A stretch of 64,000 bases of DNA. Origin: Nitrospirales bacterium LBB_01 (GTDB lineage: Bacteria; Nitrospirota; Thermodesulfovibrionia; Thermodesulfovibrionales; Magnetobacteriaceae). Of the stretch, positions 2,599 to 55,680 are shown in pieces (position 1 is the first letter of the stretch; each line of letters starts with the position of its first letter). A program made the translations under genes and the position numbers. The stretch spans positions 124,001-188,000 of the forward strand of contig CP049016.1 of the NCBI GenBank assembly GCA_004376055.2, in the 5' to 3' direction. A model generated the notes under the pieces. It did not search any database. It was given only the letters and a program-made list of their open reading frames with translations, and was not told the DNA's origin.

Positions 2599-2682
2599 CA
2601 GATTTACCCGCACATATAGTAACTTTACAACAGTTTATTGAATATATCCAACTGACATGATAAACTCTATACTAAAAAAATA

Positions 2683-2874
2683 ATTGCCTATGCAGTTAGC
2701 TCCGCAAACAAAAAAATGGATTCCTGCCTTCGCAGGAATGACAAGAAAAAAAGGAATGACAAGAAAAAGAAATGACCCCCCTTTGTCATTCCCGCCTACG
2801 AGCGGGAATCCAGTCCTTTTAACTGTATCATTTGCTGAATGAAAAAATTTACAGGAGTTAACTCAATAAGCATT
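2683..2874 (+). mobile_element. MITE-like element, family A, copy 1
   Basis: A 192-bp non-coding palindromic element. It begins ATTGCCTATGCAGTTAGCTCC and ends with an imperfect inverted copy (reverse complement AATGCTTATTGAGTTAACTCC). The interior has two strong hairpins, ATTCCTGC-cttc-GCAGGAAT and ATTCCCGC-ctacga-GCGGGAAT. The element is flanked on both sides by AAAAAATA (2675-2682 and 2875-2882), an 8-bp target-site duplication. It contains no transposase, so mobility would need a transposase in trans. Being 85 bp past the TolC-like gene, its hairpins might also end transcription. Confidence 0.85.
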
Positions 2875-2940
2875 AAAAAATATTTAGCATGGGTATAGCA
2901 TCTGAATTTATCTTTGTTCATCTGTGGTTAAAATTCTTTT

Positions 2941-3114
2941 ATTGCATATGCAGTTAGCTCCGCAAACAAAGAACTGGATTCCTGCTTTCGCAGGAATGAC
3001 AAAAAAAAGAATTGCTCCCCTTTGTCATTCCCGCCTACGAGCGGGAATCCAGTCCTTTAAAATATATCATCTGCTGACAGAAAACCCTCAGTCGGAGTTA
3101 ACTCAATAACCATT
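2941..3114 (+). mobile_element. MITE-like element, family A, copy 2
   Basis: A 174-bp copy in the same orientation as copy 1, with the same terminal inverted repeats and both internal hairpins, flanked by ATTCTTTT at 2933-2940 and again at 3115-3122 (8-bp target duplication). The 66 bases between copies 1 and 2 hold no gene; they include a short CATCTGTGGTTAAA stretch resembling the palindrome near 27.5 kb. The frame across 2924-3109 is repeat-derived and not a gene. Confidence 0.85.
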
Positions 3115-3214
3115 ATTCTTTTTCTAAATCTTTGGTTTATGATTTAACTCATATATGAAAACATGGCTGATTTGCTATGATTAGATAAAGCAGATTAAAC
3201 AGGAGGTGTTGCAA

Positions 3215-3538
3215 ATGATAGAAGTATTGGATCTAAAAAAATTGATAAAGTTTAGTTCGGAGAAGTTTACAAGACAGATGCTTTCAGATAAGCCTGAGAT
3301 GAGGGTGGCACTGATGTGTTTGGAGCCGGGGCAGGAGATAACTCCGCATAAGGCGCCGCTTAGGCTTATGATGTTTTGTGTGGAGGGCAGCGGGGTTTTC
3401 ATTGTCGGGGATGAGGAAATAGAGGCGGATGCTAAAACCGCAATTCTTTGCGACCCTCAGGTGCCGCACGGTTTTAAGGCTTCAAAAGGGGAAAGACTTG
3501 TCGTCATGGCTGTTGTCACACCGGCTGACACTGAGTAG
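3215..3538 (+). CDS. Small cupin-domain protein
   Basis: A 107-aa single-domain cupin, a small beta-barrel that usually binds a metal or small ligand. The start ATG 3215 follows AGGAGG (3201-3206) with good spacing; upstream GTG and TTG codons overlap the Shine-Dalgarno sequence. Cupin motif 1 is partial (PGQEITPHKAP, then EGSG: only one histidine of the usual HxH), while motif 2 keeps its histidine (DPQVPHGFKA). Metal binding is therefore uncertain. It stands alone between a MITE and an inverted repeat, so its partner pathway is unknown; a sensory or protective role is only a guess. Confidence 0.8.
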   Translation: MIEVLDLKKLIKFSSEKFTRQMLSDKPEMRVALMCLEPGQEITPHKAPLRLMMFCVEGSGVFIVGDEEIEADAKTAILCDPQVPHGFKASKGERLVVMAVVTPADTE

Positions 3539-3599
3539 CGGCAGTTGCTTAGCTAAAACAGCACATGTAAAACGTAGTTTCAGGAAAAGAAATAACAGA

Positions 3600-3645
3600 G
3601 ACCCTGCTAAGGTGAACATCTTGATGAGCTTACCTTAGCAGGGTC
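3600..3645. repeat. 14-bp perfect inverted repeat, possible bidirectional terminator
   Basis: GACCCTGCTAAGGT at 3600-3613 is repeated in inverse at 3632-3645, with an 18-base spacer. It lies 60 bases after the cupin stop and before the next start. There is no T-run after the stem, so it is not a textbook rho-independent terminator. Confidence 0.5.
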
Positions 3646-3681
3646 GTTGACATTCAAGCAGGTTTTAGGTAAAATTGCCCA

Positions 3682-5184
3682 ATGTCTTTTAAAGAAATGA
3701 GAATGCAAAACTACTCGAATTTTCTCATAAAATCCTCATATATTTACATAATAATACCGTATTTCATATTTTTTTTTGGTTGGCTAAAGCCTCTCTATGC
3801 TCTCATAATGACGGTGGTCATAGTGTACGCTTTATTGGTAATATTTCGTGAATTAACACTTTCTGGCACTGAAGACGTTACAGCAAGCACAGAGGATGTA
3901 CAGTCACCGTTACAGAATAAAAAAATCGTGCTAATCCTTGTTATTCTCATTCTTTGGGCGGCGTGCACAGGTATGGGAGGTTTTGGTTATCAAAATGGTG
4001 ACTACCATCAGAGAAATGCGTTGCTTAAGAATCTTATAGATCAGCCATACCCAGTGATTTACGCTCCCGAGTACGTCTCTAACAACAGTATACAAAATAT
4101 ACGGAAGGACTTTCATGGGAGTTTAGCGCTGGTATATTACTTCGCCTTTTATCTGCTGCCAGCGCTATTTGGTAAGTTCCTCGGCTGGAGGGCAGCAAAC
4201 ACTATATCATTTGGGTATGGACTTATTGGTGTGTTGATTGCTGCCGCTTGGATATTTAAGTTAGCCGGCAGATTGTCTGTGAGGTTAACGCTACTGTTAG
4301 TGTTTTTTTCCGGGATGGATTTTGTAGGATATATTATTTTAAAATTGAAAATCCCTGCGTGGACTGAACACATTGAGTGGTGGGCTGTGTTTTGGCAGTA
4401 CTCATCAAACACAACGCTTTTGTTCTGGGTGCCGCATCAGGGCATCTCAGCCTGGATTCTAACCTCGTTACTAATGAATGAAGCGCTTATCAGAAGGTCA
4501 AACCGTCATGTTGCTTTTATAACGGCAATAGGAGCCTTTTGGTCAGTGTGGGTATGTGTCGGTCTGTTACCGTTTATGATTTCCTCCATACTCATAAACA
4601 GAAAGAAACTCGGAGAAGTTTTTACTTTTCAAAACGTCATAGCTGCGTCGTTGATTGTGCTTCTTTTTGCTTTGTTTTATATGTCGCAGATTGGTGGAAT
4701 ACAAAAGATGTGGCTGTGGCAGTACATTAACATCTATGAAGCGCGGCAAAGTTTCTTGTTGTTTTATCTGCTTGAGTTTGTACTGCTTTCTGCCGTGTGC
4801 TTTGACAAAACAAGAAACTTGTGGTGGTGGACGGCTGTGGTCAGCCTCATGCTCCTGCCTCTTTATAGGATTGGTGTAATTAACGATTTTGTTATGAGGG
4901 TGTCAATCCCTTCACTATTTGTTATAATGTTTTATGCAGGGAACAGCCTGATTAACCCGTCCTGTAACAAGTTAAAAAAGGTCGCTATTTTTGTAATAAT
5001 AGCACTTGGAGCACTGACTCCCACGACAGAGATTTACAGGTCTTTGACTCGCTACAAGATAACACCGCTAAGACTTGAGAGAGTGCAAGAGTTAGCATCC
5101 GTTCCAAACAGCTACAATTATTTCGGATATACTGACAGTGTGTTTTTTGAGTACATAGCAAAAAGGAACAAATATAATAAATAG
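3682..5184 (+). CDS. Polytopic membrane protein, possibly GT-C-like
   Basis: A 500-aa integral membrane protein with about ten to twelve hydrophobic segments. After the first two helices and a short polar linker there is a loop with the sequence NGDYHQRNALL, which resembles the acidic first-loop motif of GT-C polyprenyl-sugar glycosyltransferases. I do not recognise the specific family; GT-C enzyme is inference. Its TAG stop lies inside the 8-bp sequence duplicated by the following MITE (copy 3), so the element landed exactly at the gene end without changing the protein. Confidence 0.7.
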   Translation: MSFKEMRMQNYSNFLIKSSYIYIIIPYFIFFFGWLKPLYALIMTVVIVYALLVIFRELTLSGTEDVTASTEDVQSPLQNKKIVLILVILILWAACTGMGGFGYQNGDYHQRNALLKNLIDQPYPVIYAPEYVSNNSIQNIRKDFHGSLALVYYFAFYLLPALFGKFLGWRAANTISFGYGLIGVLIAAAWIFKLAGRLSVRLTLLLVFFSGMDFVGYIILKLKIPAWTEHIEWWAVFWQYSSNTTLLFWVPHQGISAWILTSLLMNEALIRRSNRHVAFITAIGAFWSVWVCVGLLPFMISSILINRKKLGEVFTFQNVIAASLIVLLFALFYMSQIGGIQKMWLWQYINIYEARQSFLLFYLLEFVLLSAVCFDKTRNLWWWTAVVSLMLLPLYRIGVINDFVMRVSIPSLFVIMFYAGNSLINPSCNKLKKVAIFVIIALGALTPTTEIYRSLTRYKITPLRLERVQELASVPNSYNYFGYTDSVFFEYIAKRNKYNK

Positions 5185-5189
5185 AAATA

Positions 5190-5406
5190 AATGCTTATTG
5201 AGTTAACTCCTGTAGATTTTTTTCAGTCAGCAAATGATACAGTTAAAAGGACTGGATTCCCGCTCGTAGGCGGGAATGACAAAGTGAAAAAGGCGGGAAT
5301 GACAAAGGGGGGCCATTTCTTTTTTTTTGTCATTCCTTTTTTTCTTGTCATTCCTGCGAAGGCAGGAATCCATTTTTTTGTTTGCGGAGCTAACTGCATA
5401 GGCAAT
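5190..5406 (-). mobile_element. MITE-like element, family A, copy 3
   Basis: A 217-bp copy inverted relative to copies 1 and 2: it starts AATGCTTATTGAGTTAACTCC and ends GGAGCTAACTGCATAGGCAAT. TAGAAATA flanks it at 5182-5189 and 5407-5414, an 8-bp target duplication that includes the stop codon of the upstream gene. The interior has an extra GGCGGGAATGAC unit, making this copy longer. Reading frames across it encode repeat-derived peptides and are not genes. Confidence 0.87.
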
Positions 5407-5439
5407 TAGAAATATTATATAAACGCTTACCGTATAATT

Positions 5440-7730: not shown

Positions 7731-8561
7731 TTATATTTTGCAGTCTGTCCATGTTAAACTATCCTGATTAACCAGCATCATATCTGATTTGTCACCGGGA
7801 AAGTGCAAAAAATAGCCGTTATGGTAAGCAGTGTTAACACATACGGTTGACAGTGCTTTTTTTCTCTCCTCTTCAAGTGTGCTTTCTAACATCAGAAAAG
7901 GGTAGAGCAAGCATTTATAGATAGGCCAGCTCATGTTGTACCTGATATCTATCCAGTGTACTTTTGACGCCTTTTGCAGCTCATAAGAGAGCGGTCTCAT
8001 CTCATAATTCCACTCTGAGCCTCCCTTTTCCTCGTACTCATAGTAAGTTTTTTCAAGGATGTCTCTGTGTTTAGGAGAAAGAACGAGCACACCTGTTTGT
8101 ACAACCTTATCAAAGGTATCCGGCAAACCGTACTTTTTATAATACATTGAAACGTTTTGGCTAAAAGTATCGCCTTTAGGCGTTATATCTATAAGTCTTT
8201 GCAAAGCTACTGGAAACCACCCCGATGTCGGAGACGACCAAACATCTATAGCGCCAACCATGTTCTCCGGTACCTCCTCCACAATTGAGGGAGCATTGTC
8301 GGCATTAATTAAAATATCGCTGTCAATCCACACTATCCGGTCGTATTTTTTTGAGAAATCCTGGCTTAAAATCAGACACTTCTGCCATGCCGGACTGCGG
8401 TTAGCTGCCCTCTCTGAATCATCTATTGGGCTGTCTATGCAGATTATATCAAATCCGTGCTTTTGTGCATACCTCTCCCACCCGGATTTACATAAGCCAT
8501 GCCACAAACTGCCGTATATATCGCCTATTGCCATTGTCACTATGGCTTTGTTATTTCCCAT
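7731..8561 (-). CDS. GT-A-fold glycosyltransferase-like protein, duplicate B
   Basis: A 276-aa cytosolic protein with a GT-A nucleotide-sugar transferase pattern: N-terminal Rossmann-like strand, then YDRIVWIDSDILIN with the DxD motif expected to bind a metal-UDP-sugar. It recalls galactosyl- or mannosyltransferases of the GMA12/MNN10 type, an inference from the DxD context and length. About four in five residues match the neighbouring gene at 8607-9437 with no gaps, so the pair is a tandem duplication. It starts with ATG and has no strong ribosome site, unlike its twin, so it may depend on translation of the upstream gene. The sugar and acceptor are unknown. Confidence 0.75.
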   Translation of the reverse strand: MGNNKAIVTMAIGDIYGSLWHGLCKSGWERYAQKHGFDIICIDSPIDDSERAANRSPAWQKCLILSQDFSKKYDRIVWIDSDILINADNAPSIVEEVPENMVGAIDVWSSPTSGWFPVALQRLIDITPKGDTFSQNVSMYYKKYGLPDTFDKVVQTGVLVLSPKHRDILEKTYYEYEEKGGSEWNYEMRPLSYELQKASKVHWIDIRYNMSWPIYKCLLYPFLMLESTLEEERKKALSTVCVNTAYHNGYFLHFPGDKSDMMLVNQDSLTWTDCKI

Positions 8562-8606: not shown

Positions 8607-9437
8607 TTATATTTTGCAGTCTGTCCATGTTGAACTTTCCTGATTAACCAGAAGCATATCCGATTTATCGCCGGCAAAGTGTAAGAAATACCCATTATGG
8701 TAAGCCGCATTGACACATGCCGCCGACAGTGCTTTTTTTCTCTCTTTTTCAAGTGTGCTTTCCAACAACAGAAAAGGGTAAAACAAGCATTTATAAATAG
8801 ACCAGTTCATGTTGTACCTGACGTCTAACCATTGTACTTTTGAGGCCTTTTGCAACTCAAAAGAGAGTGGTCTCATCTCATAATTCCACTCAGCTCCGCC
8901 CTTTTGTTCGTACTCGTAGTAGGTTTTTTCAAGTGTGTCTCTGTGTTGTGGTGAAAAAACGATCACACCCCCCTGTACAACCTTATCAAAAGTGTCCGGC
9001 AAGCCGAATTTTTTGTAGTACATGGAAACGTTTGGACTAAAGGTATCGCTTCCAGTCGTAATATCCATATATCTTTGTAACGCAACTGGAAACCATCCTG
9101 GAGTTGGAGACGAAAAAACATCTATGGCGCCCACCATACCCTCCGGCACCTCATCTACAATTGAGGGCGCATTGTTGGCATTTATTAAAATATCGGCATC
9201 TACCCATACTATACGGTCGTATTTTTTTGAAAAATCCTGGCTTAAAATCAAGCACTTCTGCCAATTCATATGACGCGCCATGGCACGCTCTGAGACATCT
9301 ATCAGGCTGTCTATGCAGATAATATCATAGCCATGTTTATGAGCATATTTTTCCCAGCCAGGTTTACAAAAAGTCCTCCACAGTTCCTGAAACGTCTCCC
9401 CTATAGTCATTGTCACTATGGCTTTGTTATTACCCAA
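8607..9437 (-). CDS. GT-A-fold glycosyltransferase-like protein, duplicate A
   Basis: The first gene of the tandem pair, also 276 aa, with YDRIVWVDADILIN as its DxD region. It starts with TTG at 9437, six bases after AGGAGA, where the twin has ATG. Differences from the twin cluster in the N-terminal 60 residues and around the substrate-side loop after the DxD motif, while the catalytic core and C-terminus (TWTDCKI) are kept. That pattern suggests divergence of acceptor or donor preference rather than decay. A promoter-like sequence lies 60-90 bases upstream. No other surface polysaccharide genes are adjacent. Confidence 0.75.
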   Translation of the reverse strand: MGNNKAIVTMTIGETFQELWRTFCKPGWEKYAHKHGYDIICIDSLIDVSERAMARHMNWQKCLILSQDFSKKYDRIVWVDADILINANNAPSIVDEVPEGMVGAIDVFSSPTPGWFPVALQRYMDITTGSDTFSPNVSMYYKKFGLPDTFDKVVQGGVIVFSPQHRDTLEKTYYEYEQKGGAEWNYEMRPLSFELQKASKVQWLDVRYNMNWSIYKCLFYPFLLLESTLEKERKKALSAACVNAAYHNGYFLHFAGDKSDMLLVNQESSTWTDCKI

Positions 9438-12895: not shown

Positions 12896-15800
12896 TCATA
12901 TAACCATCTGCTCAATAATTTTCATTGTCTCAACACTGACAGTGCAAACCCGCTGAAGGAGTTCTATCACCTGCTCTTTGTAATCCGAAAAGCGATAGGT
13001 ATTAAACTTCTCGGCAATTGTGGCATCGTTTGGCTTTGACTCCTTGTATTGGTCAAGCACCCATTCCAATGCGCTCCTGTTGCCAAGTTTGTAATCCCAT
13101 GCGGATTTTGGAATGCCTCTAAGGGTTGTCTGCTCATCAATAATAATTGAGCCGCCGTCTTTGTCCGCCTTTAATTTCACCTTAGGCAATTCAACACTCT
13201 CATCAAATCGCTTTAATGGATATTGCTCTGCGGTCTCATAATTGATATGGAGTTCCATAAGCGCCTTACCCCATTGTGCCCATTTAAAGAAATCCTCATA
13301 AAAAGGTATGCGGGGAAAATCACGCTTCAAATTCAGTTCGTATTTCTTACGATATGACGGGTTATGAAGAACTGCATAGACATAATTAAAAATATTTTCC
13401 TTGGTGATTTCATGATTGCTGTATTGCCCAACAAATTGTTTCAATCCCCAATCTGTAATATTATAAAATCGGTTGCCGCTTTTGCCATAATGGTAGAGTG
13501 GTAAACACTGGGTTTTTTCTAAAAAATCAAAGCCACACAATTTATCTACTGCTAAGCATTGAAAAGGTTTTGATGATGAAAGACCAGAAAATGCGATTAC
13601 CGTATTATTAAAACTTGTTCCAAATATTGAATCCTGTTGATATTGCATTTCGTTCAATTTTTTGCTGTAATATAATTTCTTCTTACGAAAAGGTCTATAC
13701 ATGCTTTCTATAATAAGTCTTTCGCTGAATTTATACTTTTTTTGTTTAACTAAATCGTTCTTTACTGCACGGGTCCATTTAATTGAATAGTTTAATAGGT
13801 TGTTAATTTCATCTTTAGATTTGCCTTTTAAATTTTTTAAGTCATCATTATAAGTGTTGATTAGATAATTGATTTTATCTTTAAGATACTTCACATCATC
13901 ATCGTAAACCCATGCGTCTCTCGCAGTAACAACACCATTTGAAAACAACTTAAAAACAGCATTTCCATTTCGTCCGAGTTTCACATCCTTATTAATCAAT
14001 GGCAATAATTCATTAAAATCTGTATCCGCAATATTAATCCAATTATGTTTATTATCTGGTTGAATATGTTTAAAGGGAATACCTTGTATGTTAGTAGTGT
14101 GAAACCAATCCAATTTCTCTTCTTTTCTCTGTTCGTCGTGTAGGGTGAAATATTGGATTTGACAACTATTGTCCTTTTGCTCCTTTCTCACAAGAAACAT
14201 TACAGCGACTCCGGTTTGAATACCAAAAACATTATGCGTGGTTCCGGCAATTTTGGGGTTCACTCTGACATCGCTTCTTGTATCAATTATATAACAATAA
14301 GCAAATTCATCTTCTATGCACTTACGAAATCCATCAAAGGAACGTGAATTAATGAAGGAATTATTTGTTACAAAAGCTATAATGCCATTCTTATCTATCC
14401 TGTCTGAAGCCCACCTAAAGAACCTTGAATACATATCGTAAAGTTTTGTCTTCTGAGCAGTGCTTGCCTTGATATAAGTGTCTTTTATCCTTTTATCTAC
14501 ATCTTTATACTCTCTATTCTTATTATTATCATTTTCATTCATCTGATTAGCGTTATATGGGGGATTGCCGATAACGACCGATATTTTCTTCTTATTTTGG
14601 GATATAATTCTTTCTGCGTTTTCACTGCTGAAACCAAACAGCTTGGTTTGTTGATTTGAATAGTGTAAACCTCCGATATTATCTAACGTATCTACGAAAC
14701 AAACATTCTTAAACTCCTCATAGTAACCCATTTTTTGTTTAAAAGTGTACTCGATATTAAGGTTTGCAATATAATAAGGAAGTATGGAAACTTCATTAGC
14801 ATGGATTTCATTCTTGTATTTGTAATCAAGCAAATGCTTTGGAAGAAACTCAATCAAATCGCAAACAAAAGAACCTGTGCCTGTTGCCGGATCAAGGATT
14901 TCAACATTCTCATCCGCAAGCGTCTTATTGAAATGCTTATGAAGCAGAAAATCCGTGCTTTCAATCATGAAGGTTACAATCTCATTAGGCGTGTAAACTA
15001 TACCTAACTTATCGGCTCCTTTGGGGTTATATGCTTTATAAAAGTTCTCGTAGATTATCTTAAGAAACTTCTGTTTTTCGTGGTGGCTTACAATGCTTGT
15101 GGCATGAGCTTTTATTATCTCATAATAATTCTTTATGCTGTCAAGAGTCTGTCGTTTAGTCTTTCCAATAAAAAAAGTCTCTTCCAACTTATTTAACTCT
15201 TTTGCAATATTATTCTCGTGATGAAATTGAGAATCACTAAAAATACTGATAAAAATTTCTTCTGTTAAGATATGCTGTATAAGCATCTCATGTATGTCGT
15301 CAAGAGTAATATTAGGATTGATAACTACTTTGCACATCTCAAAAAAAGCATTAATAGATTCCTTGAAAGATTTATTGGTATCGTTCTGTTCATTTATCAT
15401 CTCATGCAGAGTTTGTGCTATTGTCGGAATATCTTGTTTAAAATGATCGATAGCCTCGTTAAAAGACCTTACATCAGGATGTTCAAAGGAGACAAATGCG
15501 ATGAGGATTTTATCCAGTTCCGCGCTGTCTCTCATGTTTACACGTAGAACTTCCGCGTTTTGCTGAAAGAGTACTGCAGTAGAACCGTCTTCAAAAATAA
15601 TATTACTTGCAGGATACCCCTTCTTAAACTTTTTATTTATCTCCTCATCAAGATCATCAGAGTCGTCTTTGCTTTCCCAGTAACCACAATCTAAGCGAAG
15701 TACATTTTTAAGAATGCCGTCAGGTACCACGCTTTTACCATTTGTTCCCATAACAGGGATTTCAGTAACAAGTTCAAGTTTTTTCTTATTAGCATATTCA

Positions 15801-15910
15801 TTTAGGAGATTATAAAAAGCGTTTCTTACAGATGTTTCATTTCTTGAACCACCATATTGTATTATCCGGTCAAGTTTTGAGTAATATTGATTAATTAGAG
15901 GTATGGACAT
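12896..15910 (-). CDS. Single-chain restriction-modification enzyme (type IIG / ISP-like)
   Basis: A 1004-aa protein combining nuclease, adenine methyltransferase and specificity functions. The N-terminus has a PD-(D/E)xK pattern (D64, then E79-x-K81 in GYWESKDD). A helical connector leads to the methyltransferase core: LDPATGTGSFVCD near residue 340 (AdoMet site) and NPPYNAN at residue 449 (N6-adenine motif IV). The C-terminal third resembles the Type_ISP_C specificity domain (AVLHNPSYRKKYELNLKRDF). No helicase motifs are present, so it fits type IIG rather than true ISP. No separate specificity gene is adjacent. AT-rich sequence and isolation suggest horizontal transfer. The frame looks intact, so it may be active. 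Confidence 0.88.
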   Translation of the reverse strand: MSIPLINQYYSKLDRIIQYGGSRNETSVRNAFYNLLNEYANKKKLELVTEIPVMGTNGKSVVPDGILKNVLRLDCGYWESKDDSDDLDEEINKKFKKGYPASNIIFEDGSTAVLFQQNAEVLRVNMRDSAELDKILIAFVSFEHPDVRSFNEAIDHFKQDIPTIAQTLHEMINEQNDTNKSFKESINAFFEMCKVVINPNITLDDIHEMLIQHILTEEIFISIFSDSQFHHENNIAKELNKLEETFFIGKTKRQTLDSIKNYYEIIKAHATSIVSHHEKQKFLKIIYENFYKAYNPKGADKLGIVYTPNEIVTFMIESTDFLLHKHFNKTLADENVEILDPATGTGSFVCDLIEFLPKHLLDYKYKNEIHANEVSILPYYIANLNIEYTFKQKMGYYEEFKNVCFVDTLDNIGGLHYSNQQTKLFGFSSENAERIISQNKKKISVVIGNPPYNANQMNENDNNKNREYKDVDKRIKDTYIKASTAQKTKLYDMYSRFFRWASDRIDKNGIIAFVTNNSFINSRSFDGFRKCIEDEFAYCYIIDTRSDVRVNPKIAGTTHNVFGIQTGVAVMFLVRKEQKDNSCQIQYFTLHDEQRKEEKLDWFHTTNIQGIPFKHIQPDNKHNWINIADTDFNELLPLINKDVKLGRNGNAVFKLFSNGVVTARDAWVYDDDVKYLKDKINYLINTYNDDLKNLKGKSKDEINNLLNYSIKWTRAVKNDLVKQKKYKFSERLIIESMYRPFRKKKLYYSKKLNEMQYQQDSIFGTSFNNTVIAFSGLSSSKPFQCLAVDKLCGFDFLEKTQCLPLYHYGKSGNRFYNITDWGLKQFVGQYSNHEITKENIFNYVYAVLHNPSYRKKYELNLKRDFPRIPFYEDFFKWAQWGKALMELHINYETAEQYPLKRFDESVELPKVKLKADKDGGSIIIDEQTTLRGIPKSAWDYKLGNRSALEWVLDQYKESKPNDATIAEKFNTYRFSDYKEQVIELLQRVCTVSVETMKIIEQMVI

Positions 15911-16370: not shown

Positions 16371-16623
16371 ATTGCCTATGCAGTTAGCTCCGCAAACAAA
16401 AAAATGGATTCCTGCCTTCGCAGGAATGACAAGAAAAAAAGGAATGACCTCCCCTAAAGGGGATTCCCCTGTAAAATTGCCCCCCTTTGTCATTCCCGCC
16501 CCTTCCCTTTGTCATTCCCGCCCCTTCCCTTTGTCATTCCCGCCTACGAGCGGGAATCCAGTCCTTTTAACTGTGTCATTTGCTGACTGAAAAAAATTTA
16601 CAGGAGTTAACTCAATAAGCATT
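16371..16623 (+). mobile_element. MITE-like element, family A, copy 4 (longest)
   Basis: A 253-bp copy with both terminal inverted repeats intact. The interior is enlarged by a unit of about 21 bp beginning TTTGTCATTCCCGCCCCTTCC, present twice in tandem before the standard right hairpin. The flanks differ (TGTTCTTA left, TAAGTTTT right), so unlike copies 1-3 there is no target duplication. It cuts off the toxin gene on the left and supplies the last codons and stop of coaE on the right. Confidence 0.85.
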
Positions 16624-17188
16624 TAAGTTTTTTATATACGTCTGCCACCTGAGATTTTGTCTCTTCATGATTACCGGAATTGTTTATAACGAAATCTGAC
16701 ATCGCAGCTTTTTTCTCCTGCGGCAATTGGGCAGATAGTCTGCTCTTTATATCCGCCGTTCTAAATCCCTTTAGCTTTAGCCGTTCCTCAACTACATCTC
16801 TGTCGCTTATTACCGTTATTATCTTATCAACATCATTGGTAAAGTTGCCCTCAAAAAGAAGCGGGATTTCGGCTACGACCACCCTGTCTGTGTTTGCAGA
16901 GGCAGCGCGTTTTATCTCCGCCATCACTAATGGATGAAGTAACGCCTCAAGCGCTCTGCGTAACTCAGGATTATTAAACACAATCGCCGCAGTCTTTGGT
17001 TTGTCAATGTTACCGGTACTGTCAAACACATCGCCCAAAAGCTCCCCAATCCTGCGCTTTATGTCGGTTTCTGACAAAAGTCTGTGAACTATCTCATCGG
17101 AGCTTACAGTCAGTGCTCCGTGTGCTTTAAACATGCTTAGAACAGTTGATTTGCCAGAGCCGAGGTTGCCCGTTAACCCTGCTAACAC
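16607..17188 (-). CDS. coaE: Dephospho-CoA kinase
   Basis: CoaE phosphorylates the 3'-hydroxyl of dephospho-CoA in the last step of coenzyme A synthesis. The P-loop GNLGSGKST is at the N-terminus, followed by the SSDEIVHRLL and LHPLVMAEI segments typical of the family; 193 aa is normal length. The last codons (Cys-Leu-Leu-Ser) and the TAA stop come from the terminal repeat of MITE copy 4, so the native C-terminus was replaced by a few residues. The change is beyond the catalytic core and probably tolerated. Confidence 0.95.
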   Translation of the reverse strand: MLAGLTGNLGSGKSTVLSMFKAHGALTVSSDEIVHRLLSETDIKRRIGELLGDVFDSTGNIDKPKTAAIVFNNPELRRALEALLHPLVMAEIKRAASANTDRVVVAEIPLLFEGNFTNDVDKIITVISDRDVVEERLKLKGFRTADIKSRLSAQLPQEKKAAMSDFVINNSGNHEETKSQVADVYKKLKCLLS

Positions 17189-17205
17189 ACCGAAGCCTGT
17201 ACCTT

Positions 17206-17330
17206 ATACCAAGTCGCAGTCAGAAGTATAACAAGGCGGCAAGGAGAAAGCGACGCAGGCGTACTTTTAGTACGTTGAGGAGCATTTTGACGATGCCAAC
17301 GAAGTTTGACGATTGAATGCAACTTGGTAT
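17206..17330. repeat. Family B terminal-inverted-repeat element, copy 1
   Basis: A 125-bp non-coding element with ends TACCAAGTCGCAGTCA and, inverted, TACCAAGTTGCATTCA (two mismatches in 16). It fills the gap between coaE and nrdJ and touches the nrdJ stop codon. A TA on each side could be a target duplication as in IS630/Tc1-type elements. A related copy lies at 45889-46007. Confidence 0.7.
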
Positions 17331-19588
17331 TACATACACTTAGTGTAGCCGCAGTCGTGGCACACCGCACAGCCGCTTTCGTGTTCAACCACCCCGCCGC
17401 ACTCAGGACATGCCCCCATAGACATGTTGACCCCGGATTTTGGCTTATCGTCAGAGTTTTTGCTGTGGCTGCAGTAATTTTCCACAGCCTTTGCTATTGC
17501 ATCGGCACAGGAGGAGATTTTGCCTCCGTTTGCCCATATAGGTTGATGACAGGATATTCCCTTTAGTTGAGTTATAAGCTCATCAGGAGCTATGTTACAT
17601 CTGAGCGCAAGTGACACAAGCCGTCCTATCGCCTCCGACTGGCTTGACGCACATCCGCCTGCTTTTCCGATGTGGTTAAACACCTCAAACGGCAAGCCGT
17701 TTTCGTCTTCATTTATCGTAACATAGAGGTTTCCGCAGCCGGTTAGTATTGACTCAGTTGAGCCTTTAATCAGCTTAGGGCGCTTACGCGGCGTCAGCTT
17801 ATGATGAGGGGTGTCAATAACAGCGGCACTGAGCGCTGATGTCGGTTCATGATGTGATGAGGTGGAAAGCACCTGCCCCTCACGTGAGCCGTCTCTGTAA
17901 ACCGTCACACCCTTACAGCCCAATTTAAACGCCTGCATGTACGCTTTTTTAACATCATCGGTTGTCGCCGATGATGAGAAATTAACTGTTTTTGACACCG
18001 CATTATCCACATACTTCTGAAAAGCTCCCTGCATTTTTATGTGATACTCAGGCGATATATCATGCGCTGTGACAAACACTTTCCTTACGTCTGCCGGTAT
18101 ATCGGAGACATCCAATATTGACGGCCTTAGCGAAATATCCTCCATAAGGTCTAATGAATAAAAACCGCGCTCTTTTGATACTTTTTCAAACCACGAATTA
18201 ACCTCGTAGAGCCTTGTACCGTCCATCACCGTTTTTACATAAGACACGGCAAATATCGGCTCTATGCCCGATGAGCACCCGGCTATTATGGAAAGCGTAC
18301 CAGTTGGCGCTATCGTTGTAATTGTAGCGTTTCTTTGTTTCCTCTTTCCGTCGTGAATGCTCCCTTCAAAGTTAGGGAACACTCCTCTTCCTTCAGCAAG
18401 AGCTTCTGAGGCGTTTCGTCCCTCATCTCTTATATGTTTCATAACGGACTCCGCCGCCGTTAACGCCTCCTCGGAGTTATACGGAATACCCAATTGCGTC
18501 AGCATATCAGCCCAGCCCATTACTCCAAGCCCGATTTTTCTATTTCCCTTTGTCATCTCCTCTATTTTTTTAAGAGGATACTTGTTTAAATCTATAACGT
18601 TATCAAGAAAATGGACAGCCTTGTGGGTTATGTCTTTGATACGGTTGTAGTCAATTTCCATCGTGCCGGAGGGTAACTTTTTAAGCATTCTGGAGAGATT
18701 TAAAGAGCCAAGGTTACAGGACTCAAAGGGAAGAAGAGGCTGCTCTCCACAAGGATTGGTGGATTCAATCAACCCCAAGTGCGGGGTCGGGTTTGTCTCA
18801 TTTATCCTGTCAAGGAACACGATACCTGGCTCGCCGTTTTGCCATGCGTGCTTTACAATGAGATCAAACACATATCCTGCGCTTACAGTTTTAACCGCTT
18901 TGCCGCTTCTTGGGTTAAGAAGTTCATATTCACCGTCTTCTGAGACTGAATTCATAAATTTTTCAGTTAGTCCCACCGATATATTGAAATTATTAAGCCT
19001 GTGGCTGTTTTCTTTACACGTTATAAAGTCAATGATGTCAGGGTGATCAACCCTCAAAATAGCCATATTAGCGCCTCTGCGGGTGCCGCCCTGTTTAACC
19101 GCTTCTGTTGCCGTATCAAACACCGTCATAAATGAAATAGGCCCTGAAGACACTCCTTTGGTTGAACCTACAACGTCTCCCGATGGTCTGAGACGAGAGA
19201 AACTAAACCCAGTGCCGCCCCCGGACTTATGAATTAAAGCTGCGTTTTTGACCGCCTCAAATATGCTCTCCATTGAGTCTTCAACCGGAATGACAAAACA
19301 TGCGCTCAACTGCCCAAGCCGGCGGCCGGCGTTCATTAATGTAGGAGAGTTTGGAAGAAAAGCCATATCTGCCATCATCTCATAAAATTCCCTTTCCAAC
19401 TGCTCCATGTCGGAAAAGCTCTTCCCATAGTTTAAATCGTTTGAAGCTATTGCATGAGCCACCCGAGTAAACATATCATGTGGAGTTTCAACCGGCTCAC
19501 CGTTTTCACCCTTTTTTAAGTACCGTTTTTGAAGCACCTTTAGTGCGTTTTGCGTTAGAGTCATTTCCTCTGTTGTTTCCAAAACCAT
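17330..19588 (-). CDS. nrdJ: Adenosylcobalamin-dependent ribonucleotide reductase
   Basis: A class II ribonucleotide reductase that reduces ribonucleotides using adenosylcobalamin, so it works with or without oxygen. Visible family blocks are FLPNSPTLMNAG, LSACFVIPVEDS with a catalytic cysteine, IHKSGGGTGFSFSRLRP, the NPCGEQPLLPFESCNLGS block and PTGTLSIIAGCSSGIEP. The C-terminus ends in a Cys-rich zinc-ribbon-like tail (CPECGGVVEHESGC ... CHDCGYTKC) usual for this subgroup. Start is ATG 19588 after GGGGGA, with ATG 19564 as an alternative. The cobO gene at 42.8 kb would supply the cofactor. Confidence 0.97.
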   Translation of the reverse strand: MVLETTEEMTLTQNALKVLQKRYLKKGENGEPVETPHDMFTRVAHAIASNDLNYGKSFSDMEQLEREFYEMMADMAFLPNSPTLMNAGRRLGQLSACFVIPVEDSMESIFEAVKNAALIHKSGGGTGFSFSRLRPSGDVVGSTKGVSSGPISFMTVFDTATEAVKQGGTRRGANMAILRVDHPDIIDFITCKENSHRLNNFNISVGLTEKFMNSVSEDGEYELLNPRSGKAVKTVSAGYVFDLIVKHAWQNGEPGIVFLDRINETNPTPHLGLIESTNPCGEQPLLPFESCNLGSLNLSRMLKKLPSGTMEIDYNRIKDITHKAVHFLDNVIDLNKYPLKKIEEMTKGNRKIGLGVMGWADMLTQLGIPYNSEEALTAAESVMKHIRDEGRNASEALAEGRGVFPNFEGSIHDGKRKQRNATITTIAPTGTLSIIAGCSSGIEPIFAVSYVKTVMDGTRLYEVNSWFEKVSKERGFYSLDLMEDISLRPSILDVSDIPADVRKVFVTAHDISPEYHIKMQGAFQKYVDNAVSKTVNFSSSATTDDVKKAYMQAFKLGCKGVTVYRDGSREGQVLSTSSHHEPTSALSAAVIDTPHHKLTPRKRPKLIKGSTESILTGCGNLYVTINEDENGLPFEVFNHIGKAGGCASSQSEAIGRLVSLALRCNIAPDELITQLKGISCHQPIWANGGKISSCADAIAKAVENYCSHSKNSDDKPKSGVNMSMGACPECGGVVEHESGCAVCHDCGYTKCM

Positions 19589-37760: not shown

Positions 37761-37789
37761 CGTTATAAACATAATATAATTGTAGAGAA

Positions 37790-37926
37790 AAAGGACTGGA
37801 TTCCCGCTCGTAGGCGGGAATGACAAAGGAGGAGATGCTTTTTGCTATCATTCCTTTTCCTTTTTTGTCATTCCTGCGAAGGCAGGAATCCAGTTTTTTA
37901 TTAGCGGTATTAGCTACAAAGGCAAT
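37790..37926 (-). repeat. Family A element, copy 5 (degenerate)
   Basis: An inverted copy with both hairpins (GGATTCCCGC-tcgtag-GCGGGAATGAC; GTCATTCCTGC-gaag-GCAGGAATCC) and a diverged right terminal repeat ending AAAGGCAAT. The left terminal repeat is not recognisable and I see no target duplication. It separates the PLD gene from pbpC. Confidence 0.75.
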
Positions 37927-45709: not shown

Positions 45710-45887
45710 TACAGCCGTATGGGCAGGCTGCCTCACAACTGGCGCACCCTGCACAATTGCCGGCGTCAAAATGAACCGGCCTGCCATCTACCATCTTAAA
45801 CACAACCTTTGGACATACGGCTGCACACTTGCCGCAGCCATCGCAGTTGTCATAGGTTATCGTTACCGTGTATTTGGATCTTTTCAT
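45687..45887 (-). CDS. 2[4Fe-4S] ferredoxin
   Basis: A 66-aa bacterial-type ferredoxin with two full CxxCxxCxxxC cluster motifs: CDGCGKCAAVCP near residue 16 and CAGCASCEAACP near residue 45. It probably carries low-potential electrons. The C-terminus ends in a run of glutamines and overlaps the convergent flippase gene. The start sits two bases from a family B repeat, so its promoter lies within or beyond that repeat. Confidence 0.92.
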   Translation of the reverse strand: MKRSKYTVTITYDNCDGCGKCAAVCPKVVFKMVDGRPVHFDAGNCAGCASCEAACPYGCIRVQQQQ

Positions 45888-45888
45888 C

Positions 45889-46007
45889 CCAAGTAGCCTT
45901 CAATCGTCTAACTTTGTTGGCATCGTCAAAAGCTCCTCAACGTACGAAAAAGTACGCCTGCGTCGCTTTCTCCTTGCCGCCTTGTTATACTTCTGATTGC
46001 TACTTGG
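45889..46007. repeat. Family B terminal-inverted-repeat element, copy 2
   Basis: About 119 bp, largely the reverse complement of the element at 17206-17330, with ends CCAAGTAGC and GCTACTTGG. The shared core includes the CAACGTAC and AAGCGACGCAGGCGTAC stretches. A further end-like sequence, AATGCGGCTTGGTAT, lies at 46041-46055 against the histidine kinase stop, matching the AATGCAACTTGGTAT end of copy 1 and hinting at a second, partial or nested copy. Confidence 0.65.
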
Positions 46008-46054
46008 ATAGAAAGTATTCAAACGGACGTTAGGCAATAGAATGCGGCTTGGTA

Positions 46055-47695
46055 TCATAGCTTTATTTTAAACTCAGCTCCACCGTCTATGTTTTTGCAT
46101 GAAATACTGCCGCCCATGCTTTCAACTATTGTTTTGCTCATATGCAGCCCTATACCTGTCCCTTCCTCATCTGATTTGGTTGAAAAGTAGGGCTCGAATA
46201 CCTTGTCAATAATCTCATCAGGAATTCCGCCGCCATTGTCTCTGACTGACACTCTAACCCTGCCGTCGCCATTTGAAAGACAAATCTTTATCTCTCCTTT
46301 TTTCGTCCTGTCCAACATATTATTTTCCCACATTGAAACTATGGCATCACGGGAGTTGTTGATCAAATTCAAAATTACGTGTTTAAATTCGTTTTCGTGT
46401 CCATTTATTACGTAACTGTCAGAGGGTTTACCCTTGTCAAGTGTGACAAATATATTTGATCTGCTTAGCATATCGCCAAACATAAATAGTACATCTTCTA
46501 TTGAATCTATCATATCAAAATCGGCCGTAAGCTTTGAGGGTTTTAGAAAATACCTGAAATCGTAAATGGTTTTTGACATAAAATCTATTCGTTCCAAAAT
46601 AACGTCAACAGTTTTATCAAGCGCCTCCTTAGTTAACTCCTCATATTTATATGAATCCTTTATTCCCTGCACCAGCAAGGAAATACCGGTTAGGGGTTGT
46701 TTCCACTGATGAGCTATGGCGCCAATCATCTCGCCAATTGCCGCCAGTTTTGATTGTTGCACTAAGAGCCGTCCCTCCTGCTCTCTTAAAGATACCTCCT
46801 CCTGAATCTTTTGCTCCAGAGCCTTATTAAGAGAGCGTATTTCCTCCTCTTTGGCTACTCTTTCAGTTATGTCTTTAGATACGTGAACAAACTTATCCAC
46901 TTCTCCAAACGCATTTGCAATAGGATACACCACAACCTCAACATAAATCTCTTTGCCGCTTACACTGTCATAATGAATGTGAGTAACCGGCGTCGGTTTC
47001 CCTTGCCTGTAATATTCCCTTACAGGGCATGGAGTATTAGGTAATTGGCAGGGTGTTTCCCGAAGATGTGTCAGCTTATAACAACGCATTCCTATTGGCG
47101 TGTTCTTTGTTTCTTTTTGCACGGTTTTATTTGCCCATAATATCTTATAATCTTTTGTAATAAGGAGTATCTCATCTGTAATGCCGTTTGCAACCGTTTC
47201 CAGCAGCAGCTTTGTCTGTTTCAGATCATTTAAAGAGCTCTGTAGTTGTGTTTGAAGGTTCTTGCTTACAGCTGCCTCATCCTCTAACTTTTTATTTAAC
47301 TCTTTCAGTTTCTTTTCCGTACTGTGCCTATATAGCGCTATCTCAATGTTAGAGTGCAGTTCTTTACTGTTAAACGGCTTTATTATGTAGCCAAATGGTT
47401 GTGTAACTTTAGCCCGCTCTACCACTGCCATATCCGAGTGAGCGGTAAGATACACGATAGGAATATCTGCATGAGTCCCTATCTCATAAGCTGTTTCAAT
47501 GCCGTCCAGTTTCCCATGCAGTCTTATATCCATAAGAATCAGGTCAGGTTTATCCAGGAGCGCTCGTTCTATGGCCCCATCTCCTGTCATCTCGTGTGAG
47601 GTTACCGTATAGCCTAAATTTTCCAGCATATCCATAATGTATGACCCGGTTATTCCATCATCCTCAACTACCATTATCCGTGCACTGCGCTTCAA
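46055..47695 (-). CDS. Response regulator-PAS-histidine kinase hybrid
   Basis: A 546-aa cytosolic protein. Residues 1-120 are a receiver domain (MVVEDDGITGSYI, phosphoacceptor Asp in DLILMDIRL). A coiled-coil and a PAS/PAC domain (about 165-280, with Cys-rich CYKLTHLRETPCQLPNTPC) come next. The kinase has the H-box GEMIGAIAHQWKQPL and an ATPase domain (LNLINNSRDAI, DNGGGIPDEI, GTGIGLHMSK). The N-terminal receiver suggests it takes phosphate or a signal from the two upstream kinases. It starts with TTG 47695, 27 bases after the previous gene. No DNA-binding output domain is present. Confidence 0.9.
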   Translation of the reverse strand: MKRSARIMVVEDDGITGSYIMDMLENLGYTVTSHEMTGDGAIERALLDKPDLILMDIRLHGKLDGIETAYEIGTHADIPIVYLTAHSDMAVVERAKVTQPFGYIIKPFNSKELHSNIEIALYRHSTEKKLKELNKKLEDEAAVSKNLQTQLQSSLNDLKQTKLLLETVANGITDEILLITKDYKILWANKTVQKETKNTPIGMRCYKLTHLRETPCQLPNTPCPVREYYRQGKPTPVTHIHYDSVSGKEIYVEVVVYPIANAFGEVDKFVHVSKDITERVAKEEEIRSLNKALEQKIQEEVSLREQEGRLLVQQSKLAAIGEMIGAIAHQWKQPLTGISLLVQGIKDSYKYEELTKEALDKTVDVILERIDFMSKTIYDFRYFLKPSKLTADFDMIDSIEDVLFMFGDMLSRSNIFVTLDKGKPSDSYVINGHENEFKHVILNLINNSRDAIVSMWENNMLDRTKKGEIKICLSNGDGRVRVSVRDNGGGIPDEIIDKVFEPYFSTKSDEEGTGIGLHMSKTIVESMGGSISCKNIDGGAEFKIKL

Positions 47696-54460: not shown

Positions 54461-55347
54461 TGCCTGTGGGAGTTGCGATTAACAAAGAAACATTGTTAGA
54501 TATTAGTTATGGGCGGCTCTGTCAATGTAAACCCTCCAATATTAATTGTCTTACGGCAAAAGAGTGGCTTAGAAACCAGCTTGGCGTTTGGCAATTCACC
54601 TATGAAAAAAGGGATGTAAGGGATAAAAGCACACACCCTGCAACGTTCCCAATATCGCTTGCTAAAAAAGTTATTGAGTTATTTACTCATATGGGAGAAT
54701 TAGTGGTTGATCCTTTTGTTGGGAGCGGAACGACACTTGTCGCTGCTATGGACACAAATAGAAATGCAGTTGGATTTGACCTGCAATCAAGTTATATAGA
54801 GCTTTGCAAAACCCGGCTTTCTAATGGACATCTTCATAATACGACAAAACAGATTCCAATTGAAAACGATGCAAGAAATATTCATGAGTACTTTAAAGAA
54901 GAGACTGTATCCCTTATCTGGACATCGCCACCTTATGCAAATCTATTAAATCGCCAAAGAAAAAATAAATCAAGACGGAACAGAAAAAACGAACAACTCG
55001 ATAAAGTGGAATAATATTCCCAGGACTAAAGAGACTTGGGCATAATGTCAATAGATGATTACACTATAGCTATGGGGGATATTTTTGAATATATGCTGCC
55101 GCTATTAAAACCAAAGGCTCATTGCGTTATTAATGTTCCCGATATGTGGTGGGAAAATGAGAGGATTACTATACATATCTCCTTAGTACAGGAATTAAGA
55201 CGCAGGGGATATGAGCTTAGAAATATTATTATTTGGGATAGAACCAATATTGTAAATAAAATTGGTATTTTTGGCTGGCCAAGTAACTACATTACTATGG
55301 GAGTCACCTTTGAATATCTGTTAGACTTCTGGAGACCGCCCAAATGA
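54460..55347 (+). pseudogene. Second DNA methyltransferase, broken by two in-frame stops
   Basis: The frame reads VVDPFVGSGTTLVAA (motif I, from residue 83), then IWTSPPYANLLNRQRKNKSRRNRK (motif IV, around residue 156), then stops at TAA 55012-55014. Four codons later a second TAA (55027-55029) occurs, after which the same frame continues as a normal methyltransferase C-terminus (GHIM-type strand replaced by HCVINVPDMWW, WDRTNIVNKIGIFGWPSNYI) to 55347. No frame change is involved, so two nonsense changes explain it. The start is also unclear (TTG 54460, GTG 54466 or ATT 54478). The motif order differs in spacing from the first enzyme, as in systems with two permuted methyltransferases such as BcnI. 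Confidence 0.8.
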
Positions 55348-55492
55348 AGACGTACACAAAAGAAGAACTTATAGATAAACTCATTGAAATAAAAAACGGA
55401 GGATGGATAAGGAATGCCAGAGTTGGTAATGCTGGTGGTATAGGAAACACACTTGAGGACTTACTTCACAAAGCTGGGACTAAGTTATTTAA
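55344..55492 (+). pseudogene. Truncated MvaI/BcnI-family restriction endonuclease
   Basis: ATG 55344 overlaps the methyltransferase stop. The first 40 residues, with LIDKLIEIKNGGWIRNARVG then GGIGNTLEDLL, match the N-terminus of MvaI-type endonucleases (compare GGW...KGNTGIGKTFEDLL of MvaI, from memory). At 55493 the sequence becomes a family A element, and the frame's remaining codons to 55667 are repeat-derived (ending LRKQESSF). The catalytic domain is missing, so no cutting activity is expected. This leaves the first methyltransferase as an orphan. Confidence 0.72.
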
Positions 55493-55651
55493 AATGCTTA
55501 TCAAGTTAACTCTGGCAGACTGTTTTCTAAATTATAAGTATGTAGGGTTATATGTTTTTGAATTGAAAAAAAGGATGGATTCCCGCTCGGAGGCGGGAAT
55601 GACAAGGAGGATAGTTATTTTTTTGTCATTCCTGCGAAAGCAGGAATCCAG
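55493..55651 (-). mobile_element. Family A element, copy 6
   Basis: The left end AATGCTTATCAAGTTAACTC is a clear terminal repeat of family A, in the orientation of copy 3. Both hairpins follow (GGATTCCCGCTCGGAGGCGGGAATGAC region and CATTCCTGC-gaaa-GCAGGAATCC). The expected right terminal repeat is not recognisable, and no target duplication is visible, so the copy is incomplete. It sits at the broken end of the endonuclease gene and 30 bases before the next gene. Confidence 0.75.
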
Positions 55652-55680
55652 TTTTTTATTGGCATAGTGTCACTAAACAG

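Follow-up and report, generated by a model that had tools for sequence, protein, structure and literature searches.

A MITE family enclosing REP hairpin dimers, with the ends of an IS1595-family element from sister genera

The window (the whole 64-kb stretch of DNA analysed here, bases 124001-188000 of a single-contig host genome of 3,273,455 bp) contains several copies of a short palindromic repeat with paired hairpins inside. What moved these repeats, and why do hairpins of the REP type lie between their ends?

Copies in the window and across the host genome

The best-preserved copies carry the marks of transposition. Copies 1-3 (Table 1) are bounded by imperfect terminal inverted repeats of 21-22 bp, somewhat shorter than the approximately 25 bp given in the initial annotation, and the 8-bp target duplications described there proved exact in all three upon re-reading. 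No open reading frame (ORF) of at least 100 amino acids lies inside these copies. The three further copies proposed at 16.4, 37.8, and 55.5 kb are present; only the one at 16.4 kb is full length, and it has additional partial hairpin arms in its interior, while the other two each lack one recognisable end. An Rfam search of the window gave no matches.

Table 1. Positions of the MITE copies, their REP hairpins and target duplications in the window, as read from the sequence
Feature	Position	Strand	Details
Target duplication, copy 1, left	2675..2682		AAAAAATA
MITE copy 1	2683..2874	+	192 bp; L end ATTGCCTATGCAGTTAGCTCC, R end AATGCTTATTGAGTTAACTCC
REP hairpin 1, copy 1	2718..2742	+	GGATTCCTGC-CTTC-GCAGGAAT-GAC; head (GACA/TGTC) inward
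REP hairpin 2, copy 1	2785..2811	-	GTC-ATTCCCGC-CTACGA-GCGGGAAT-CC; head inward
Target duplication, copy 1, right	2875..2882		AAAAAATA
Target duplication, copy 2, left	2933..2940		ATTCTTTT
MITE copy 2	2941..3114	+	174 bp; two REP hairpins
Target duplication, copy 2, right	3115..3122		ATTCTTTT
Target duplication, copy 3, left	5182..5189		TAGAAATA
MITE copy 3	5190..5406	-	217 bp; two REP hairpins
Target duplication, copy 3, right	5407..5414		TAGAAATA
MITE copy 4	16371..16623	+	253 bp; both ends intact; without 8-bp duplication
Degraded copy 5	37785..37926	-	L end ATTGCCTTTGTAGCTAATACC and both hairpins present; R end unrecognisable
Degraded copy 6	55493..55661	-	R end AATGCTTATCAAGTTAACTCT and both hairpins present; L end unrecognisable

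The family consists of short non-coding transposons, with about 80 well-preserved copies in the Nitrospirota host genome, which we sampled both by searches and by stretches. Allowing up to three mismatches, the left end occurs 120 times and the right end 113 times genome-wide, and reversed-pattern controls gave 0. Pairing drew on the 200 matches listed out of these 233, and all counts of paired elements are among the matches listed. These gave 78 close end pairs and, after their flanks were fetched, 81 elements, which measure 93-270 bp and occur in either orientation. Exact 8-bp duplications border 42 of the 81 elements (54 with up to one mismatch), against 0.7 expected from re-paired flanks. 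This excludes chance AT-rich matches as the source of the duplications and bears out the earlier suggestion that the copies moved by transposition. For 27 of the 81, no 8-bp duplication was seen even when one mismatch was tolerated. Eight elements have exact matches of 7 or 9 bp, and lengths of 5, 6, and 10 bp showed no excess comparable to that at 8 bp. The target profile is symmetric: the base before the duplication (position -1) is A in 37 of 42 cases and the base following it is T in 40 of 42, while within the duplicated 8 bp the two outermost positions at either end are A/T in nearly all cases. Part of the spread is recent, since the median nearest-neighbour divergence among elements is 1.9%.

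Empty sites are found in congeners. We compared the joined flanks of 16 elements with the congeneric genomes. At the insertion at 3054996, G001 aligns across the junction with 84% identity and has one AAGTTATA, with the adjoining bases identical on both sides. At the insertion at 563339, a single TAATGATA is present in both G002 and G003, with a weaker alignment on one side. Thus, the single target copy that the initial annotation had proposed to look for in related strains is present in three congeners. Candidate empty sites at the insertions at 3040139, 1118181, 2154508, and 381275 were set aside, as their junctions are too diverged to count. Copy 5 and a G002 copy, which have the adjacent 8-mer AATAGTTA in common, were not counted as orthologous because their flanks show no further homology.

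An IS1595 element with the same ends in sister genera

The same ends enclose a transposase gene in sister genera. In sister genus g2 (Nitrospirae MYbinv3, PEAB01000027.1), a 977-bp element (G004:C36:1626-2602) has these ends and an exact duplication, TAATGTAA. Its transposase contains the Pfam domains Zn_ribbon_IS1595 and DDE_Tnp_IS1595, and the ORF is broken by one stop codon. A 978-bp element in genus g3 (G016:C1:1093-2070; Nitrospirae nDJH8bin13, JADFYL010000177.1) has the same 22-bp ends and an intact 303-amino-acid transposase, which matches NCBIfam NF033547 (transpos_IS1595) at 6e-57 together with both IS1595 Pfam domains; this element is without a target duplication. Of the candidate parents named at the outset (IS256, IS1595, and ISL3), IS1595 is therefore the right one.

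Similarity between the MITE and the insertion sequence is confined to the ends. The two ends of copy 1 are identical to those of the G004 element at 20 of 22 and 18 of 22 positions, respectively. Beyond them, identity falls to 6 of 23 and 8 of 23, neither significant, and homology stops after 22 bp. An origin of the MITE as an internal deletion derivative of the insertion sequence was rejected on this absence of homology past the ends. G004 also harbors a hairpin-less MITE of 153 bp with the same ends and the duplication TTTTATTA.

The recommended search for a transposase gene between such ends thus succeeded in sister genera and failed in the host genome. Neither the host nor three congeners showed an IS1595 transposase in searches by protein and by family model, and no full-length parent was found in the host by both ends (among the matches listed), by protein, or by Pfam model. 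The family-model search makes a diverged full-length copy among the unlisted end matches unlikely. A 3.1-kb L-to-L pair at 979552-982684 was considered as a parent and rejected, since the ORFs that it spans are, by eye, unlike transposases. No relatives of the transposase were found in viral contigs. Because the host and three congeners yielded no such transposase, the family looks orphaned in the host genus, and we infer its active source from the sister genera.

REP dimers between different transposon ends

Nearly every element holds two hairpins arranged head-to-head. Each has the layout TGTC-ATTCCNGC-loop-GCNGGAAT-CCA, that is, a TGTC tag, an 8-bp stem beginning with AT, and a CCA tail. 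The loop is 4 nt in one partner and 6 nt in the other. As defined in the source paper, CGTC-type REPs have a CGTC or TGTC tag, a stem of 8-9 bp that begins with AT, a loop of 4 or 5 nt and a CCA tail, and they occur mainly as head-to-head pairs (PMC3733652). The interior is thus a head-to-head pair of TGTC-tagged palindromes that fits the written definition of a CGTC-type REP dimer, except for a 6-nt loop outside the usual 4-5 nt; the earlier description of the interiors as REP-like is sustained. We found 443 perfect hairpins of this type in the host genome and 0 in the control. We sampled 464 kb, made up of the window and a further contiguous stretch of 400 kb. Of the 44 hairpin clusters there, 41 are head-to-head pairs, and IS1595-type ends could be recognised on either side of 27 of 43 hairpin pairs, compared with a rate of 2.6% per end at random positions. 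Covariation is seen at one stem position (T-A 94, C-G 86, A-T 6, mispaired 3), and copy 1 folds far better than its shuffles (z -5).

The same kind of dimer also occurs between other ends. At the tested stringency, the hairpins are present in 36 of 60 related genomes and the IS1595-type ends in 10. In G010, from a sister genus, we sampled 20 hairpin loci (L228-L247). Twelve of these lie between GTATCCTCTTTA ends (e.g., L230 and L247), with exact 8-bp duplications in seven where none were expected. Four more lie between CTATACTTTCGCACTTT-type (CTATACTTTCGCAC) ends (e.g., L231 and L237), all four with exact 6- or 7-bp duplications. The GTATCCTCTTTA ends number 159-180 per genome in G010 and G004. 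An end of this type is also found beside a gene truncated at a contig boundary, and the C-terminal product of that gene matches the IS66 transposase (Pfam 1e-5, above the cut-off; NCBIfam 5e-17, below the full-length cut-off). IS66 elements make 8-bp duplications. Since sister-genus MITEs with other ends hold the same kind of dimer, REP dimers look like recurrent MITE cargo.

In the host, a few hairpin pairs are framed by TAATACCRAGTTGC ends, and hybrids with IS1595-type ends have also formed. These class B ends are a possible further, fourth frame for REP dimers; no clear duplication was seen at them in the host. The window also contains a second inverted-repeat family (17205-17331 and 45886-46056), with ends ATACCAAGTTGCATTCA and CCAAGTCGCAGTCAG and more copies elsewhere in the host. 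Ends similar to these frame some REP dimers and hybridise with IS1595-type ends.

Mechanism, alternatives and relation to known systems

We propose, with a probability of about 0.9 on the sequence comparisons made here, that an IS1595-family DDE transposase acting in trans has moved the MITE family, whose interior would be a captured REP pair amplified as a passenger. The transposase would recognise the 22-bp ends (L ATTGCCTATGCAGTTAGCTCCG, R AATGCTTATTGAGTTAACTCC) and insert the element into A/T-rich targets that follow the pattern A-WWNNNNWW-T, and host repair would then duplicate the central 8 bp. A head-to-head pair of TGTC-tagged hairpins would have been captured and afterwards amplified with the element. 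An IS1595 transposase probably moved the host copies and was later lost from the lineage, and the hairpins would ride as cargo, taking no part in the transposition chemistry. As speculation, pairing between the two hairpins might draw the ends of the transposon close to each other, or it might protect the element against read-through transcription.

Another transposase resident in the host could accept these ends and move the MITE, and the recent, near-identical host copies would suit this, as no IS1595 gene was found there. We regard it as improbable, given that the ends match the IS1595 element over the full 22 bp, that the duplication length agrees, and that no different transposase turned up between ends of this kind. 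Very improbable, in our judgement, is the reading in which a RAYT (a Y1 tyrosine transposase) moves the hairpin pairs as independent REPINs, with the outer ends as incidental flanks. The head-to-head arrangement is indeed that of REPINs, some host pairs have no recognisable outer ends, and the hairpins occur in more relatives than the ends do, including relatives without such ends at the tested stringency. However, the duplications begin exactly at the outer ends and not at the hairpins, a hairpin-less element with the same ends has transposed too, and sister-genus hairpins lie inside other frames of terminal inverted repeats and duplications. Furthermore, the host has only three Y1 transposases, all plain IS200 TnpA-like, with no hairpin within 1.5 kb; no RAYT flanked by REPs was found in the host, and a RAYT origin was rejected.

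Spread by recombination or segmental duplication in place of transposition is refuted for the family as a whole, and we give it next to no weight as a general account, although it does hold for a few copies. An inverted duplication, exact over at least 688 bp (1079894-1080581 / 1083986-1084673), has a MITE end as its inner boundary, and the left flank of the second MITE there is homologous to the left flank of the MITE at 3054996. This mixed origin of flanks, together with the inverted duplication, indicates recombination between MITE copies, after which a minority of elements without duplications is to be expected. Against a wider role, more than half of the copies have unique flanks and their own exact 8-bp duplication, and empty sites exist.

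IS1595 MITEs, REP dimers, and REP dimers in longer palindromes without a mechanism are already known separately. The MITE of ISHwa6 (IS1595 family) in Haloquadratum walsbyi is 165 bp long, with seven copies, 25-bp ends, and an 8-bp duplication (PMC3852290). The family described here is likewise non-coding, with IS1595 ends and 8-bp duplications, but it numbers about 80 or more copies in a bacterial rather than an archaeal host. Like REPINs, it has inverted REP pairs dispersed between genes (PMC3116915); unlike them, it has DDE-type ends and 8-bp duplications, and no RAYT was found here. The closest likeness of the hairpins is to CGTC-1 REPs, which include dRS3 of Neisseria: both have the TGTC tag, an 8-bp stem from AT, a 4-nt loop in one hairpin, a CCA tail, and head-to-head heterodimers (PMC3733652). 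They differ in the 6-nt loop of the second hairpin and in the location of the dimers inside a transposon. According to the same paper, no transposase is associated with CGTC-type REPs, and Di Nocera et al. (2013) left their movement open, suggesting that many kinds of transposase, a broad range, might move them (PMC3733652). The paper also describes REP dimers nested in longer palindromes, CGTC-1 in H. neapolitanus (palindromes of 41 bp) and GTAG-15 in A. variabilis, with no transposase or target duplication assigned to these frames in the sections consulted (PMC3733652). There too an outer inverted repeat frames the REP dimer, whereas here a transposase family and target duplications are assigned to the frame.

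We found no report of this MITE family in the literature. Two points are new: the dimer is nested in a MITE whose parent is identified, and within one bacterial family dimers of this kind are carried by three or more MITEs that differ in their ends. A dimer between transposon ends, with duplications, empty sites, and an identified parent, is a likely answer for one lineage to how CGTC-type REPs move. The question of their mobility is now open to direct testing, with a search recipe for other REP-rich genomes. More tentatively, and at less than even odds, CGTC-type REP dimers may lack a transposase of their own because unrelated DDE transposons repeatedly carry and spread them as cargo (IS1595-type, IS66-type, a third with 6-7-bp duplications, and a possible fourth frame in one Nitrospirota family), which could explain their dispersal in other phyla.

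Several genes in the window adjoin MITE copies. The stop codon TAG of ORF 3682-5184 is part of the left duplication of copy 3 and is preserved by that duplication. The coaE ORF (16607-17188, minus strand) has its final codons and stop inside the end of copy 4 (16607-16623). ORF 55344-55667, which enters degraded copy 6, weakly matches the MvaI/BcnI restriction endonuclease model over its first 31 positions and is possibly a truncated gene. Elsewhere, the window encodes a 1004-amino-acid Type ISP restriction-modification enzyme (12896-15910) and tandem paralogous ORFs of 276 amino acids (7731-8561 and 8607-9437), which have in common a 300-bp stretch that is 86% identical.
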